From a virus, in the IMG/VR virus record IMGVR_UViG_3300027749_000328, positions 1 to 32,887 of that record: a stretch of DNA of 32,887 bases; one strand, given 5' to 3'. The position numbers were made by a program, and so were the translations under genes. The notes under the pieces were generated by a model. The model was not told the DNA's origin. It did no database searches and saw only the letters and a list, made by a program, of their open reading frames with translations. Shown here one piece after another: positions 10,226 through 32,887 of this stretch (positions within the stretch are counted from its first letter, which is position 1; every line of letters begins with the position of its first letter).

Positions 10226-10372
10226 ATGAAATATACTAAAGAACAAGCAGAAAGATTAAAAAATAAAGCAATGGATGGTTTTACAAAATATGACAGACCA
10301 TTACCACAAATTACTATTAAAGATGGATTTTATATAATCGAAAGTAAAATAAATTTGCATTTAATTAAATAA
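10226..10372 (+). CDS. 48-residue protein, last of the first early operon
   Basis: A small basic protein (KYTKEQAERLKNKAMDGFTKY, then a beta-type end) preceded by the third copy of the junction repeat. The next promoter's TTTG element lies inside its 3' end. No family recognised. Confidence 0.45.
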   Translation: MKYTKEQAERLKNKAMDGFTKYDRPLPQITIKDGFYIIESKINLHLIK

Positions 10373-10384
10373 TTATTATATTTG
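10354..10384 (+). promoter_or_regulatory. Second early promoter, Bacteroidetes type
   Basis: TTTG at 10354-10357 and TATATTTG at 10377-10384 have a 19-base spacer, identical in boxes and spacing to the promoter at 8970-9000. Transcription should start near 10390 and include the structured leader that follows. Confidence 0.8.
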
Positions 10385-10399
10385 CATAACAAACGACAA

Positions 10400-10470
10400 G
10401 TAAGGCGGTCGAACAAAATTAACAAATCCCGAATTATTAGAGTGCCTTACCTCTTTTAGTTCGGGTATTT
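10400..10470 (+). promoter_or_regulatory. Structured leader 1, interleaved pairing (pseudoknot topology)
   Basis: GTAAGGC (10400-10406) pairs with GCCTTAC (10444-10450). CCCGAA (10428-10433) pairs with TTCGGG (10460-10465), which AAAT/ATTT at 10424-10427 and 10467-10470 can extend past a bulged T at 10466. The order is a-b-a'-b', so both pairs together form a pseudoknot. A T-rich stretch and the ATG at 10484 follow. Pairings are seen by eye; folding and function are inferred. Confidence 0.55.
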
Positions 10471-10483
10471 ATTTTAAAAAAAA

Positions 10484-10654
10484 ATGGAAACATTATTAAA
10501 AATTATTGAAGAAAAATTGTTATTGATTGAGCAGTTACAAGCTAAATTAATGGAAGCACAAAAAGAAATTGAATATCAACAAGGATGTAAACTTGATTGG
10601 TACAAAAAATTCACTGAATTAGAATCAACTTTAAAAATTAATCAAGATGCCTAA
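10484..10654 (+). CDS. Small coiled-coil protein, unknown function
   Basis: This 56-residue protein is almost entirely helical (KIIEEKLLLIEQLQAKLMEA), with a heptad-like Leu/Ile pattern that suggests a dimeric coiled coil. It is the first gene after structured leader 1 and overlaps the following gene by 8 bases. The family is not recognised. Confidence 0.6.
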   Translation: METLLKIIEEKLLLIEQLQAKLMEAQKEIEYQQGCKLDWYKKFTELESTLKINQDA

Positions 10655-10823
10655 AGTAACATTTTTAGAATTTAGCAAAGCAGTAAGAGGATATGACTTT
10701 TACTCTAAACGAACAGGTTACCAAGTTTATAAATATCAAATGTACTGGAAGGGATTGAACCCAGTTGTTTGTTTTGATATTTATGATAGTAAATTAATTA
10801 TAAACGAAATTAGCAATGAGTAA
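10647..10823 (+). CDS. Small early protein, unknown function
   Basis: This 58-residue, Tyr/Lys-rich soluble protein (GYDFYSKRTGYQVYKYQMYW) has a beta-type C-terminal half. It overlaps both neighbours by 8 bases (10647-10654 and 10816-10823), a strong sign of a coupled operon. No family recognised. Confidence 0.55.
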   Translation: MPKVTFLEFSKAVRGYDFYSKRTGYQVYKYQMYWKGLNPVVCFDIYDSKLIINEISNE

Positions 10824-11253
10824 AGATTTATTTATGATGTTACGTGAGCAAGAAGTTCAGACATCAAACTTTCTACCAAATAAGAAAGAGATCCAATTTA
10901 GCAGTAAGAAGTTTATTACTGAAGTTTTAGAAGCAGGTGAAGTTGATAAATTTGAGTTACTTGCACAAGCCAAAAGAATAGGTGAAGCATTGGATGTTAT
11001 TAATGAAGAACTGCTAAAAGTGATCCCACAAGAAAACTTTGAAGCATTTGGTTTAAAAGGTATATTCCGTAGTGGTGGCGATACTATTAACTATTCAGAA
11101 GATGCGATTTACGCAACAATAAAAAAAGATTTAGATGATAGGGCAGAATTATTGAAACTTGCTCTTAAACAAGACTTAATTGATGCGTATGGTAATGATG
11201 TACCTAAAGTTTCAACAACACCAAGAAAATCATCATTAGCTATTAGTTGGTAA
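10816..11253 (+). CDS. Early protein next to the putative SSB, unknown function
   Basis: This 145-residue protein has a helical N-terminal part, a central GIFRSGGDTINYSEDA segment (about residues 80-95), a helical stretch (DLDDRAELLKLALKQDLIDAYG) and a Ser-rich end (RKSSLAISW). Similar small proteins accompany recombination or ssDNA-binding genes in Bacteroidetes phages, but I cannot name a family. The promoter and leader of the next gene begin at its 3' end. Confidence 0.65.
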   Translation: MSKDLFMMLREQEVQTSNFLPNKKEIQFSSKKFITEVLEAGEVDKFELLAQAKRIGEALDVINEELLKVIPQENFEAFGLKGIFRSGGDTINYSEDAIYATIKKDLDDRAELLKLALKQDLIDAYGNDVPKVSTTPRKSSLAISW

Positions 11254-11277
11254 ATTAAAAAAAAATTATTATCTTTA
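11247..11277 (+). promoter_or_regulatory. Probable promoter of the SSB gene
   Basis: TTG at 11247-11249 and TATCTTTA at 11270-11277 are 20 bases apart. This is a near-consensus Bacteroidetes promoter (last base A instead of G in the -7 box). A structured leader follows within 20 bases, as at the other two leaders. Confidence 0.55.
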
Positions 11278-11293
11278 CATTTCATAATTAATC

Positions 11294-11325
11294 GATGCAA
11301 GGTTTGGGCATCTTAACTCCAAACC
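11294..11325 (+). promoter_or_regulatory. Structured leader 2, compact H-type pseudoknot before SSB gene
   Basis: GATGC (11294-11298) pairs with GCATC (11308-11312). GGTTTGG (11301-11307) pairs with CCAAACC (11319-11325). Loop 1 is AA, no base lies between the helices, and loop 3 is TTAACT. A 2-base loop crossing a 7-bp helix and a 6-base loop crossing a 5-bp helix fit standard H-type geometry. The ATG follows 19 bases later. The T4 gene 32 message carries an autoregulatory pseudoknot of the same kind. Confidence 0.65.
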
Positions 11326-11344
11326 ATAAATAAAAATAAATATT

Positions 11345-12019
11345 ATGAGTACTTCAAACCGCAGACAAGCGTTTGCACAACCACAAAGCAATCCATCAAC
11401 TAAATTTATTGAATGGAAATCAAACGACAAATGTTTTAGCTACTACGACAAAGAGGAGCAAAAAAACATTTCAATTCCTTTACCTTTTAAATTCCTGGTG
11501 CTTGATGAACTGCATACAATCAAAGGATGGAACGATGCAACTTCAAGCGCAATTTATTCCAACGAGGTTAAATTTATTTCAAAAGAAACTTTAACGGTAA
11601 AACCATTTAAAGGGAATGAAATAGCTAAAGGACTTTATAAAGATATTAAAGAAAAGATTGTTGCAGCAGGAGGACATTATACTAAAAGCATTTACATAAT
11701 GCTTGAAGATGGATCACTTGCAAATATACAACTAAAAGGTTCAGCAGTTCAAAAATGGGGCGATTTTACGCAAAAAACACGCAACAGATTGCCGGATGAA
11801 TGGGTGCAAGTAGCAAGTGCGTTAGATGGCAAAAAAGGAGCTGTTAAGTTTTGGACTCCAGAGTTTACATTTTTTAAATCGCTTTCTGAAAGCGAAATGG
11901 ATTTGGCAGATGAAGCGTTTAATATTTTAGAAGCTTATTTAAAAGCTTATTTAGTAAAAGCAGAGCCAATAATTGAAGATATTGATCCTATTGATAACGA
12001 TGAAGATTTAGAGTTTTAA
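11345..12019 (+). CDS. Putative single-stranded DNA-binding protein
   Basis: This 224-residue protein has a predicted OB-fold-type beta-rich body (PLPFKFLVLDELHTIKGW, then KFISKETLTVK) and a conserved-looking segment GGHYTKSIYIMLEDG near residue 110. Its end is markedly acidic, DIDPIDNDEDLEF. Acidic tails on replication ssDNA-binding proteins recruit other replication enzymes. It has its own promoter and leader, is followed by a strong terminator, and lies upstream of the primase-helicase. It would coat single-stranded DNA during replication and recombination. Alternative: another phage recombination accessory protein. The family is inferred from composition and context. Confidence 0.55.
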   Translation: MSTSNRRQAFAQPQSNPSTKFIEWKSNDKCFSYYDKEEQKNISIPLPFKFLVLDELHTIKGWNDATSSAIYSNEVKFISKETLTVKPFKGNEIAKGLYKDIKEKIVAAGGHYTKSIYIMLEDGSLANIQLKGSAVQKWGDFTQKTRNRLPDEWVQVASALDGKKGAVKFWTPEFTFFKSLSESEMDLADEAFNILEAYLKAYLVKAEPIIEDIDPIDNDEDLEF

Positions 12020-12043
12020 TAATTGTTTTATTTTGTTTGGTTG

Positions 12044-12073
12044 AAACCTCGCTGTAATGGCGGGGTTTTTTTT
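12044..12073 (+). terminator. Rho-independent terminator after the SSB gene
   Basis: A 9-bp stem (12044-12052 with 12060-12068, one wobble) with a 7-base loop is followed by T residues to 12073. It isolates the SSB unit from the control region downstream. Confidence 0.85.
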
Positions 12074-12090
12074 GCTATTAAAATAGCAAA
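12071..12090. repeat. Perfect 9-bp inverted repeat
   Basis: TTTGCTATT (12071-12079) and AATAGCAAA (12082-12090) are perfect inverted repeats around AA, partly overlapping the T-run of the terminator. It may be a second terminator hairpin or a protein-binding palindrome. Confidence 0.6.
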
Positions 12091-12104
12091 TTTAATTTTT
12101 TAAA

Positions 12105-12259
12105 AGTACACAAGTACACTTTAAATGTGGTTACTATATTATAAGGAAATATTAAAAAAAATAAAATAAATTTTTTTTCTCAAAAATTGGGTTTCAATGT
12201 GTACTTGTGTACTATTTGAATATAAAACCCTTATTTTACTAGGTTTAACTACAGTACAC
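12105..12259. repeat. Five AGTACAC boxes in the replication control region
   Basis: AGTACAC occurs at 12105-12111, 12113-12119 and 12253-12259, and in reverse complement at 12199-12205 and 12207-12213. The two pairs make a perfect 15-base inverted repeat 79 bases apart (AGTACACAAGTACAC and its complement). The remainder of 12091-12311 is very AT-rich and gene-free. The boxes could be iterons of a replication origin or operators controlling the primase-helicase promoter. The pattern is seen; the function is inferred. Confidence 0.65.
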
Positions 12260-12311
12260 TTTTATTTTTAAAAAGTTTTTTTATTTTATTAGTTTATATT
12301 AAATAAAGTAT

Positions 12312-12319
12312 TATATTTG
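12312..12319 (+). promoter_or_regulatory. -7 element of the primase-helicase promoter
   Basis: TATATTTG, followed by C, matches the Bacteroidetes -7 box used at the two early promoters. The expected TTTG about 19 bases upstream is only TTAG at 12289-12292, so this promoter is weak or needs an activator, possibly acting from the AGTACAC boxes. Confidence 0.55.
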
Positions 12320-12329
12320 CAAGAATTGG

Positions 12330-12408
12330 AGTGGTAGCCAAATTAATAACTTATTACAGAACCTCATTACCACGCAACTACCACTGCTGGTAATGGGGTT
12401 TATTTTTT
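12330..12408 (+). promoter_or_regulatory. Structured leader 3, terminator-like hairpin with loop pairing
   Basis: AGTGGTAG (12330-12337) pairs with CTACCACT (12378-12385). A 13-bp stem with one wobble joins 12360-12372 to 12388-12400. The second partner of the first helix lies in the loop of this stem, again an a-b-a'-b' order. The 13-bp stem is followed by TTTATTTTTTTT-like sequence, as in an intrinsic terminator, 14 bases before the ATG at 12415. It may be an attenuator or a translational control element. Confidence 0.6.
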
Positions 12409-12414
12409 TTAACT

Positions 12415-14805
12415 ATGAATGTAACAATTTACAAAAAAGCAACGGATGTTTCTAATGGTTTTACAAAAGATGTAAAATTTTGTTTAGAACGAATTAGACA
12501 AGGTAAAAGCAAAGAAACCGTTGAATGGTTAAGAACTTTGAATAAAATAGAATATGATAAAAATAAAAGCAAATTACCTGGTGTATGTTTTAATGGTATT
12601 TTTGAATATAGATCACTTGCAGGAATTAAAGAACATTCGGGTTTAATAATATTAGATTTTGATAAATTTGATAGCGAGCAGGATGCAATAGATTTTAGGA
12701 ATTCTATTTCAGATGATGATTATATTTTTGCTGCTTGGATTTCACCAAGTGGTAAAGGAATAAAAGCTTTGGTTAAAATTCCAAAAGAAATAGAAAATCA
12801 TAAAGAATATTTTAAATCACTTAAAAATTATTATAATCATTCCAACTGGGATGATAGCGGATCAGATGTAAGTAGATTTTGTTTTGAGAGTTATGATGCA
12901 GATTTATATTTAAATGAGAATTCAAAAGAATGGAATAAAATAGATTTACCGGAAGTTGAAGATATTGGAAATAAAAATGTAACTATTCCAATAAAATCGG
13001 ATAGTTTAATAATTACAAATTTATTAAAATGGTTTGAAAAAAAGTATAGTATATCTAACGGTAATAGAAATAACAATTTATTTAAATTAGCATCTGCATT
13101 TAATGATTTTGGAATTAATAAAAATGTAGCAGAACAAACATTATTACAATTTCAAACAGAAGATTTTGATAGCAAAGAAATAATATCTTTGTTAAATTCT
13201 GCTTATAAAAAAACTAATCAATTTGGAACCAAATTTTTTGAAGATAAAAACATAAAACAAAAAATTGAAAAACAAATTAGAACAGGCAGAAATAGAAAAG
13301 AAGTTATTGATTATCATTCTGAATTTGATAAAAAAGAAATTGAAAAGTGCATTGATGAAATTAAAGATGAAATTTCAGTATCTGACTTTTGGTTTTACAA
13401 TGATAAAGGTAAAGTTAATTTAAGTCCACATAAATATAAATTTTGGCTACAACAAAATAATTTTTTTAAATATTTTCCTACTGATACTAATACTTATACT
13501 TTTATAAAAATCGAACAGAATTTAGTTGAAGAAACAAGCGAAAAGAGAATTAAAGATTTTGTTTTGGAAAATTTATTATCACGTGAAGATATTGGATTTA
13601 GTCCTTATGATTATATGGCTTCAAGTCCTAAATATTTTCAATCTGATTTTTTAAGTTTTTTAGAGAGTTCAGAAATAAATATAAAAGAAGATACCCAGGA
13701 GGAATGTTTTTTATATTTTAATAATTGTGTAGTAAAAATTACTGATAAAAATATAACAACCATTGATTATTTAGATTTAGACGGTTTTGTTTGGAAAAGA
13801 CAAATAGTAAATAGAGAATATAGCCAATTAGATCATCATAATTCAGTATTTAGAAATTTCCTTTGGTTAATATCCGGTCAAGATTCAGACAAGTATAATA
13901 GTTTTAAATCAGTAATAGGTTATTTATTACATTCTTTTAAAACTTCTGCCAATAATAAAGCAATTATTTTTAATGATGAAACTATTAGCGAAAATCCTAA
14001 TGGAGGAAGTGGAAAAGGTTTGTTTTGGAACGCATTAGCGCAAATGAAAAAAGTAAGCAGTATTGATGGGAAAACCTTTGAGTTTACCAAAAGTTTTCCT
14101 TATCAAACTGTATCTACTGACACCCAAATATTGGTATTTGATGATGTAAAAAAGAATTTTAATTTTGAGAGTTTATTTAGTTTAATTACAGAAGGTATTA
14201 CTTTGGAATATAAAGGTCAAGATGCAATTAAACTTCCAGTAACACAAAGTCCTAAAATATTAATTACTACAAATTATACTATTGGAGGAGTTGGCGGATC
14301 ATTTGAACGTAGAAAGTTTGAAGTTGAAATGTCTGATTATTTTAGTTACAAACATACACCATTGGACGAATTTGGGCATTTATTATTTGATGATTGGAAT
14401 GCAGATGAATGGTTAATGTTTGATAATTTTATGATACAATGCGTTCAATATTATTTATTAAATGGATTGACTAAACACGATTTTAAAAATTTAGAAGTTC
14501 GTAAATTTATTAAAAATACTTCTCACGAATTTTATGAATGGAGCAAACCCGATAATGCTGGCAAAAATGAAAATATTGAATTTAATATTAGATGCATTAA
14601 ACAAACATATTACGATAGTTTTATAAATGAATATCCCGATTTTAGAACTTATAAATTAAGTCAAAAAAGATTTACTCAATGGATTGAGCAATATTGCAAA
14701 TTTTATAAATATGAGTATTTAACAGGAAATTCAAATGGCCAACGTTGGTTTGAAATTATTAATAAAAATATTGAGCAGGAAAACGATAATGATATAGCAT
14801 TTTAA
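12415..14805 (+). CDS. Replication primase-helicase (BT4734/VirE-N domain plus SF3-like helicase)
   Basis: The protein has 796 residues. Residues about 1-175 resemble the BT4734/VirE N-terminal domain (LPGVCFNGIFEYRS, SGLIILDFDKF, AAWISPSGKGIKALVKI, DVSRFCFESYD), which in related proteins accompanies priming. Residues about 185-280 resemble a primase C-terminal linker. The helicase core has Walker A NPNGGSGKG (527-535), Walker B ILVFDDV (572-578), a sensor-type ILITTNYT (615-622) and an Arg pair (FERRKFEVEM) that may act as arginine finger. This is the likely replication initiator and unwinding enzyme. No phage DNA polymerase is seen, so host polymerase is probably recruited. It is preceded by structured leader 3 and the AGTACAC boxes. 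Confidence 0.8.
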   Translation: MNVTIYKKATDVSNGFTKDVKFCLERIRQGKSKETVEWLRTLNKIEYDKNKSKLPGVCFNGIFEYRSLAGIKEHSGLIILDFDKFDSEQDAIDFRNSISDDDYIFAAWISPSGKGIKALVKIPKEIENHKEYFKSLKNYYNHSNWDDSGSDVSRFCFESYDADLYLNENSKEWNKIDLPEVEDIGNKNVTIPIKSDSLIITNLLKWFEKKYSISNGNRNNNLFKLASAFNDFGINKNVAEQTLLQFQTEDFDSKEIISLLNSAYKKTNQFGTKFFEDKNIKQKIEKQIRTGRNRKEVIDYHSEFDKKEIEKCIDEIKDEISVSDFWFYNDKGKVNLSPHKYKFWLQQNNFFKYFPTDTNTYTFIKIEQNLVEETSEKRIKDFVLENLLSREDIGFSPYDYMASSPKYFQSDFLSFLESSEINIKEDTQEECFLYFNNCVVKITDKNITTIDYLDLDGFVWKRQIVNREYSQLDHHNSVFRNFLWLISGQDSDKYNSFKSVIGYLLHSFKTSANNKAIIFNDETISENPNGGSGKGLFWNALAQMKKVSSIDGKTFEFTKSFPYQTVSTDTQILVFDDVKKNFNFESLFSLITEGITLEYKGQDAIKLPVTQSPKILITTNYTIGGVGGSFERRKFEVEMSDYFSYKHTPLDEFGHLLFDDWNADEWLMFDNFMIQCVQYYLLNGLTKHDFKNLEVRKFIKNTSHEFYEWSKPDNAGKNENIEFNIRCIKQTYYDSFINEYPDFRTYKLSQKRFTQWIEQYCKFYKYEYLTGNSNGQRWFEIINKNIEQENDNDIAF

Positions 14806-31457: not shown

Positions 31458-32887
31458 TATACACTTTATACAATTAGCAGATTACCAAGCACCTAAAATC
31501 ACTGAAAATAAACGTGATGAATGGGTTGATTTTGGTGATAATAATGATTACTATCAGTTTTTAATTGACAGATATAACGGAAGTACTACAAATAATGCAG
31601 TAATAAATAATATTACTAAACTTATTTATGGAAAAGGATTGACTGCTAACGATGCAAATCGTAAACCTAATGAGTTTGCACAAATGAAAATGTTGTTTTC
31701 TAAAGATACTATTAGAAAAATAACAAAGGATTTAAAATTATTAGGTGAGTTTAATCTGCAGTTAATCTACAATGAAAAGAAAGATAAGATTGTAAGAGTT
31801 GAACATTTACCTACTAATTTAGTTAGAAGTGAAAAATGTAATAAAGATGGAGTTGTAGAAGCGATTTATTATTCAGATAATTGGGAAGATATTAAGAAAT
31901 TCCCACCTAAAAGAATTTCTTTATTTGGCTACGGAAGTAAGACAGAAAAACTCGAGATTTTGCGGGTGGGCAATTATACAATAGGTCAAAAGTATTATTC
32001 TAATGTTGATTATATTGGTGGAGTAAGTTACGCAGCTTTAGAAGAAGAAATATCTAACTATTTGATTAACGAAGTTCAAAACGGATTTTCAGGTACAAAA
32101 ATAGTTAATTTTAATAATGGAGTTCCAACAGAGGAACAACAATCTATTATTCAATCTAAAGTTAAATCTACTTTAACAGGAAGCAAAGGTAAAAAGGTAA
32201 TAGTTGCATTTAATTCGGATGAAACTAAAAAAACTACTGTAGATGATATTCCATTAAACGATGCACCTGAACATTACAAATATTTATCCGATGAATGTTT
32301 GGCTAAAATAATGTTATCGCATAATGTAACAAGTCCTTTACTTTTTGGAATTGCAACATCAACAGGATTTAGTGCTAATGCAGATGAGTTAAAAAATAGT
32401 TATATTCTTTTTGAAAATATGGTTATTAGACCATTTCAAGAGTTAATTTGTGATGGGTTAGATAAAGTGTTAGCTTTTAATGAAATTAGCTTGGATTTAG
32501 CGTTTAAACAACTTCAACCGCTTGATATAGATGGTGAATTAACTAAAGCATTAGATACACCAACACAAATGAGTTCACATACTTGTTTAAGCAAAGATTT
32601 AACTGATGAAGATGGAAATAATATACTTGAATTATTAAAAGGTGAAAGTATAGATGATGAATGGGAGCTTGTTGATAAAAGAGAATATTCAGATAGCAAT
32701 ATTTCTATTGATGAATGGGCAAATTCTAAAATAAAAAATAAAGAAAATATACTACAAAAATTTGCTGGAGTTATAAAATCTTCACCAAGTGCAAAAAGTT
32801 CATTAGATAAAGGAAATTATAAAGTACGTTATGAATATTTTGAGAAGTATTCAAGTGGAAATTCAAGAGATTTTTGTAAACAAATGA
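31450..32887 (+). CDS. Portal protein, second copy, truncated by window end
   Basis: About 479 codons are present and the reading frame is open to the end of the window. It parallels 360-1797. Amino-acid differences cluster in one short stretch (first copy KKFVPKRLPLFGYGAKGDK, second KKFPPKRISLFGYGSKTEK) and are sparse elsewhere. The last third is almost identical in DNA. It is intact as far as seen, so either a real second portal allele or a strain variant joined in assembly. Confidence 0.8.
   Translation, partial: MSNIHFIQLADYQAPKITENKRDEWVDFGDNNDYYQFLIDRYNGSTTNNAVINNITKLIYGKGLTANDANRKPNEFAQMKMLFSKDTIRKITKDLKLLGEFNLQLIYNEKKDKIVRVEHLPTNLVRSEKCNKDGVVEAIYYSDNWEDIKKFPPKRISLFGYGSKTEKLEILRVGNYTIGQKYYSNVDYIGGVSYAALEEEISNYLINEVQNGFSGTKIVNFNNGVPTEEQQSIIQSKVKSTLTGSKGKKVIVAFNSDETKKTTVDDIPLNDAPEHYKYLSDECLAKIMLSHNVTSPLLFGIATSTGFSANADELKNSYILFENMVIRPFQELICDGLDKVLAFNEISLDLAFKQLQPLDIDGELTKALDTPTQMSSHTCLSKDLTDEDGNNILELLKGESIDDEWELVDKREYSDSNISIDEWANSKIKNKENILQKFAGVIKSSPSAKSSLDKGNYKVRYEYFEKYSSGNSRDFCKQM

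Follow-up and report, generated by a model that had tools for sequence, protein, structure and literature searches.

The window, as we call the whole stretch of DNA analysed here, is one virus record of 32.9 kb (IMG/VR record IMGVR_UViG_3300027749_000328) from a phage of Bacteroidota; among named phages, those of Flavobacterium and Cellulophaga are closest to it. Three leaders on its plus strand are described. Leader 1 precedes an operon with open reading frames of 56, 58 and 145 amino acids (10484–11253), leader 2 the gene of a 224-amino-acid predicted single-stranded-DNA-binding protein (SSB; 11345–12019) and leader 3 a primase gene (12415–14805; 796 amino acids, with BT4734-like_N and PriCT_1 domains). 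The original prediction held that each contains two complementary pairs in the interleaved order a-b-a′-b′, and that together they may form a shared control system. Here, we report that evolution has preserved the folded shapes of these leaders although their letters differ, and that the structure is under selection. Leader 2 is a sequence-conserved, SSB-specific pseudoknot, and leaders 1 and 3 belong to a widespread class of two-hairpin leaders that is apparently undescribed.

The promoter of leader 1 (10354–10384) is of the Bacteroidota type, with TTTG at 10354–10357, 19 nucleotides (nt) and TATATTTG at 10377–10384. The −7 box of leader 3, again TATATTTG, lies at 12312–12319, and a −7-like box, TATCTTTA, precedes leader 2 at 11270–11277, where relatives have TATATTTG or TATATTTA; transcription starts were placed from these boxes. 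A small hairpin at the transcript start, P1, holds a in its loop both in leader 1 (10394–10411; CGAC at 10394–10397 with GUCG at 10408–10411, a being GUAAGGC at 10400–10406) and in leader 3 (12326–12341; UUGG with CCAA, a being AGUGGUAG at 12330–12337). The second hairpin consists of stems P2 and P3. In leader 1 (10428–10465) it has 9 base pairs (bp) of P2, formed by CCCGAAUUA (10428–10436) and UAGUUCGGG (10457–10465), a 2×2 internal loop, and then P3 with its apical loop (10439–10454), namely 4 bp (AGAG at 10439–10442, CUCU at 10451–10454) and 8 nt, at −16.9 kcal/mol (z −5.5). That of leader 3 (12359–12401) has 14 bp of P2 (12359–12372/12388–12401), one bulged base, 3 bp of P3 (GCA/UGC) and again an 8-nt loop, at −22.6 kcal/mol (z −6.6). 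The apical loops carry a′ (GCCUUAC at 10444–10450 in leader 1, CUACCAC(U) at 12378–12385 in leader 3), which pairs with a; both partners lie in hairpin loops, and the contact is therefore a loop–loop kiss. Directly 3′ of P2 follows a U-tract in both leaders (the U-rich UAUUUAUUUU at 10466–10475, and 12402–12410). In kissing leaders generally P1 begins a few nt past the expected transcription start, and P2 ends 8–25 nt before the AUG.

Leader 2 is instead a compact H-type pseudoknot (11294–11325) in a 5-2-7-0-6 layout, with a 5-bp S1 (11294–11298/11308–11312), AA between the stems, a 7-bp S2 (11301–11307/11319–11325), no junction and a third loop of 6 nt. An unstructured A+U linker with UAAA repeats, AUAAAUAAAAAUAAAUAUU (11326–11344), spans the distance from the pseudoknot to the AUG. 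The best interleaved a-b-a′-b′ pair of each leader was sought by summed stacking energy, with 2000 dinucleotide-preserving shuffles as control. The pairs were present where they had been predicted, in leader 1 (a 10400–10407/10443–10450, b 10428–10436/10457–10465; score −29.5, equalled by 1 of 2000 shuffles), in leader 2 (a equivalent to S1, b to S2; −21.7, equalled by 1 of 2000) and in leader 3 (a 12330–12337/12378–12385, b equivalent to P2; −37.6, equalled by none of 2000). The predicted distances agree as well, a starting about 10–17 nt past the −7 box and b′ ending 13–19 nt before the ATG. Among the TAnnTTTG sites on either strand of the window, those of leaders 1 and 3 alone had no shuffle in 100 as good; TATCTTTA is not among these sites and leader 2 was tested separately. 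Shuffled sequence, which would have paired equally often if the leaders were unremarkable, falls short of the signal. The interleaved order thus stands for all three leaders, but a simple pseudoknot common to them does not, leaders 1 and 3 being kissing hairpins.

The pseudoknot of leader 2 recurs with other letters directly 5′ of homologues of the 224-amino-acid gene in IMG/VR contigs, S1 appearing as GATGC/GCATC, GCTCG/CGAGC, GGAGC/GCTCC, GTTGG/CCAAC or GCAGC/GCTGC. An ungapped alignment of 41 distinct leaders has 98.6% of its cells paired, against 77.3% in column shuffles, with G-U pairs in use and double-sided changes at 10 of the 12 pairs (5/5 in S1, 5/7 in S2). Its covariation score is 0.618, compared with 0.171 when shuffled and at most 0.193 when slid; as related sequences share history, shuffle counts here and below are not probabilities, kinship being addressed by the slid controls and by the pattern test of kissing leaders given below. 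A structure-based search for the motif in all the fetched loci gave 54 distinct occurrences, each of them before an SSB-type start. The conserved unpaired letters are A14, G16, G17 and C40, then AUAAA. The linkers of these 54 are 15–20 nt long, 63% A and 32% T, and hold 1.59 UAAA each, against 1.24 after shuffling. We regard it as shown that the pseudoknot exists and is selected, that it belongs to this gene alone, and that the A+U linker is present. In two related loci (L019 and L045) a kissing-hairpin leader lies directly 5′ of the SSB pseudoknot, so that the two devices can be stacked in series within one leader.

Scanning of about 160 related loci gave about 90 kissing-type leaders, and P1 measured 4 bp or more in 65 of 89; homologue counts were taken from the best 80 matches listed and are lower bounds. 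Among the upstream regions of primase homologues, an unbiased set, p ≤ 0.01 was reached in 23 of 54 nonredundant regions and in 18 of the 28 with a promoter box, whereas an operon-internal helicase gene used as control reached it in 1 of 30. The closest relative of leader 1, located before the same gene (L003), keeps a and a′ and is altered on both strands of P2 (CCCGAA/UUCGGG to CCCUCUA/UAGAGGG) and P3 (AGAG/CUCU to UUCC/GGAA). Within the gene family of leader 1 the kissing pair, GGUCAG/CUGACC, hardly varies while P1 and P3 around it show covariation, with 91.3% paired and a covariation score of 0.532 against 0.169. The leader 3 family, some rows of which are out of register, scores 0.281 against 0.156. 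Kissing leaders are also carried by the cultured Flavobacterium phages lillamy9-1 and mumin6-1, an especially clear pair of isolates with GUGAGACG/CGUCUCAC in the former and GUGGAACG/CGUUCCAC in the latter; in these phages the element lies 5′ of gp034, gp037 and gp043.

An unbiased test of the kissing contact was made by scanning IMG/VR for TGATAAAGA-N7-CTTTTGA, a pattern that fixes P3 and leaves the loop and its partner free. Of the 81 matches, 54 have a suitably spaced TAnnTTTG box, and the first 28 nt of every one of these 54 contain a sequence fully complementary to the N7. The 30 distinct members of this subfamily have 98.9% of cells paired and a covariation score of 0.350 against 0.085, with double-sided changes in P1, the kissing helix and P2 alike, and 5′/3′ chimeras of kissing leaders lose pairing (−11.9 against −31.7). 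Covariation, pattern test and chimeras all strongly support the earlier claim of selection on RNA structure, and the related phages do show compensatory stem changes. Nine of ten proteins tested behind the pattern-scan leaders matched HNH/NUMOD4, GIY-YIG/NUMOD3 or T5orf172, most of which are domains of stand-alone homing endonucleases; the tenth, of 79 amino acids, had no match. As a class, kissing leaders are found in related phages before primase genes, before early operons and before many homing endonuclease genes of the stand-alone kind. In the loci L256–L335 the homing endonuclease genes seem to move as a single cassette together with their promoter, kissing leader and U-tract. When 397 genomes of the host family were scanned with the pattern of the homing endonuclease subfamily, 6 matches were obtained, compared with 3 when the pattern was reversed, and the variable loop of the phage leaders was seen in none; with regard to a host-chromosome origin, the subfamily is absent from these genomes above the reversed-pattern control.

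The one shared control system that had been proposed is not upheld. Since the folds differ and the range of genes differs, with a pseudoknot tied to the SSB gene on the one hand and kissing hairpins with a U-tract before many genes on the other, a single family for the three leaders was rejected. A loop E module (AGUA/GAA) between P2 and P3 is not a defining feature of the kissing leaders because it is found in only 7 of 77, UGAUA or UGAAA types being found in 19 of 77. A resemblance in topology to the pistol ribozyme was considered, and Rfam gave no match. No covariance model of Rfam matches leaders 1, 2 or 3 at gathering score in the window, and ten related loci gave nothing but two chance matches to a human long non-coding RNA model, below its gathering score. 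Neither Bacteroidota phage leaders nor kissing-loop attenuators nor structured homing endonuclease leaders of this sort were found described in the open-access literature, in keeping with the original view that no such leader family had been reported.

The end of the kissing leaders resembles a terminator. In 45 nonredundant leaders the 8 positions past P2 are 62–80% T with almost no G, after which T drops to about 36%, and a T-run of at least 4 follows P2 in 33 of the 45, against 11.5% by shuffling. Leaders 1 and 3 themselves have a stable stem and then a U-tract between promoter and gene, as is looked for in intrinsic-terminator attenuators, and the gap between U-tract and gene start is too short for a second promoter. 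With this profile and a gene too close for another promoter, attenuation is favoured for both.

The product of the leader 2 gene had no match in Pfam or NCBIfam, and falls in PHROG 6706. Its mycobacteriophage relatives, at about 30% identity, adjoin genes of DNA polymerase or primase. AlphaFold2 gave a predicted local distance difference test (pLDDT) score of 40 from 21 close sequences and a mean of 84.5 from a more diverse alignment (A3), which modelled an OB fold. In VIA-align the rows with Z > 5 were phiC31 RDF, the gp32 cores of RB69 (Z 5.8; 141 residues, 4.6 Å) and T4 (Z 5.5; 133 residues, 4.4 Å) and BRCA2 OB domains, although values below 8 may, by the tool's own warning, reflect merely a common arrangement. 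The next rows were gp32-Dda-dT17 (4.9), RPA (RPA70), Cdc13, POT1 and mitochondrial SSB, so that OB-fold binders of nucleic acids dominate. The protein ends in an acidic tail (...DNDEDLEF), and its homologues in DDLEF, DDLDF, EDEIPF or NDLPF, the tail type of bacterial SSB. The model and these tails strongly suggest that the predicted protein is an SSB whose OB core resembles that of gp32. Few further relatives came from scans that used the L166 protein (39% identical) and proteins of the mycobacteriophages Gaia and Courthouse. The L166 homologue has a perfect NDLPF tail and its contig is filed as a Nitrosotalea (archaeal) metagenome-assembled genome; it is possibly a phage contig binned in error.

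Some features surround these units. An ordinary intrinsic terminator 3′ of the SSB gene (12043–12069) cuts leader 3 off from that gene. Between it and the primase promoter, at 12091–12277, lie inverted repeats built from GTACACAAGTACAC and GTGTACTTGTGTAC, and related contigs have GGTACACATTTAGGTACAC-like repeats at the matching place; these are candidate origin iterons or a candidate operator. The 145-amino-acid protein of the leader 1 operon is conserved in related contigs, and directly 5′ of its gene two related phages have tandem pentapeptide-like repeat genes (L012, about 1950–2300; L025, about 1600–2200). The last 1.4 kb of the window (31460–32887) is without a long complete open reading frame on the coding strand, and perhaps holds one that runs off the end.

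On balance, we lean towards two RNA devices, in which leader 2 would be an autogenous translational operator and leaders 1 and 3 transcription attenuators. Leader 2 most likely works like the gene 32 operator of T4, to which it is likened because of the gp32-like OB matches, the SSB-type tails, the UAAA linker and the published T4 design. Free SSB, when in excess over single-stranded DNA, would bind the pseudoknot and then spread cooperatively along the UAAA-rich linker across the start codon, shutting off its own translation in the fashion of T4 gp32; both binding and repression are inferred from this analogy. In leaders 1 and 3 the nascent RNA would fold P1 and then P3, the loops would kiss, and P2 would close below to make, with the U-tract, an intrinsic terminator shortly before the start codon. 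The gene would then be expressed only by polymerases that read through, so that expression is held down or timed. In these two leaders the hairpins, the kissing pairs and the U-tract are shown, and termination, its relief and any factor acting in trans are inferred; that a phage factor recognising the kissing shape may relieve termination is a guess. Reading by a phage protein is plausible for both kinds of leader, and for leader 2 this could be the SSB itself. A ligand, which had also been proposed as reader, is not needed and nothing points to one.

Several observations speak against these two readings. The linker of leader 2 is 15–20 nt, whereas the unstructured part in T4 exceeds 40 nt; more distant SSB homologues (L166, Gaia) are without the pseudoknot; and Foldseek with the model of the 224-amino-acid protein gave no match at E ≤ 0.001, which adds to the caution on Z values above. 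As regards attenuation, two of 43 nonredundant leaders, both from a single subfamily, had an a:b antiterminator alternative of at least 6 bp, and pairing of a with b was dismissed as a general antiterminator; nor does kissing by itself prevent P2. A simple terminator scan called neither leader 1 nor leader 3, because the loop is long. A wider version is rather doubtful as a whole, namely that Bacteroidota phages share shape-conserved, sequence-free kissing leaders read by a phage-encoded factor that would switch early genes and homing endonucleases together, alongside an independently evolved gene-32-like SSB operator.

Alternatively, leaders 1 and 3 could mainly be stabilisers of the mRNA 5′ end or structures that time translation, the kissing fold at the transcript start shielding from decay or keeping ribosomes off the start region and the U-tract serving as a site for ribosomal protein S1 or unstructured initiation. 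The closeness of P1 to the start site and of P2 to the AUG, and a shape maintained while sequence changes, would suit such a role, and in T4-like phages structured leaders make for lower translation of homing endonucleases of the stand-alone kind (PMC3014915). However, the fall of T-richness after about 8 nt and the near absence of G are the profile of a terminator, and a U-tract at the foot of P2 is needed neither for stabilisation nor for masking; we regard this as possible, although not probable. It is quite improbable that leaders 1 and 3 are cis antiterminators like put, in which the folded RNA would stay with RNA polymerase and let it pass later terminators. HK022 put consists of two hairpins, and the leaders do lie directly past early promoters, but a terminator-like stem with its U-tract forms the end of the element itself, which also precedes single homing endonuclease genes.

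For leader 2 the pseudoknot could be read by the ribosome, a host protein or a small ligand and not by the SSB. Compact H-type pseudoknots also form riboswitches, and the conserved unpaired letters listed above suit any partner that reads sequence. The strict tie to the SSB gene alone, the SSB-type product with its UAAA linker and the lack of any Rfam riboswitch match make such a reader unlikely. A signal in the DNA, such as a single-strand origin or a protein-bound cruciform, was also considered, leaders 2 and 3 adjoining replication genes and iteron-like repeats lying at 12091–12277. The elements nevertheless sit between promoter and start codon in one orientation, use G-U pairs and in many cases precede homing endonucleases, and a DNA feature is thus hardly credible.

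Like intrinsic-terminator attenuators, leaders 1 and 3 have a hairpin and a U-tract between promoter and gene, but in place of a general, mutually exclusive antiterminator helix there is a kissing contact with the 5′ hairpin. As with I-TevI, mobE of Aeh1 and segB of T4 (PMC3014915), the leaders of stand-alone homing endonuclease genes in these phages are structured RNAs. The hairpins of those known cases cover the ribosome-binding site, whereas the kissing hairpins are placed 5′ of the start codon, with a U-tract as their end. The kissing leaders seem to form a large class of cis-regulatory RNA that has so far gone undescribed, in a group of phages, those of Bacteroidota, whose gene control is little known, and with their presence in cultured Flavobacterium phages they can be tested now.

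Like leader 2, which precedes a predicted SSB gene, the STAXI motif (RF01728) is a pseudoknot near SSB and other DNA-handling genes (PMC2864571). In Enterobacteriales, STAXI is repeated two or three times in tandem and UUCG loops are frequent in it; leader 2 is a single copy without UUCG and without a match to RF01728 at gathering score, and is not a STAXI motif. The T4 gene 32 operator consists of a pseudoknot and a stretch free of structure that holds UUAAA/UAAA repeats and along which gp32 spreads (PMC535899). In T4, RB69 and T2, unstructured A+U sequence that holds UAAA repeats separates the pseudoknot from the start codon of the SSB gene (PMC535899, PMC3014915), and in leader 2 the pseudoknot is separated in the same way from the start codon of the predicted SSB gene. 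The likeness extends to the protein, gp32 cores being among the best structural matches of the leader 2 product. Leader 2 differs in belonging to another phage lineage and another host phylum, in lying directly 5′ of the start region and in its conserved loop and flank letters (AAGG...CCAUAAA). There is no detectable sequence relation to gp32, and membership in the gene 32 operator family is not claimed. To our knowledge a self-control switch of this kind for an SSB is so far known only from phage T4. Leader 2 would, if the likeness holds, be a second and apparently independent case, and its dozens of natural variants make directly testable the old question of how an SSB recognises its own mRNA among all other single-stranded nucleic acid.

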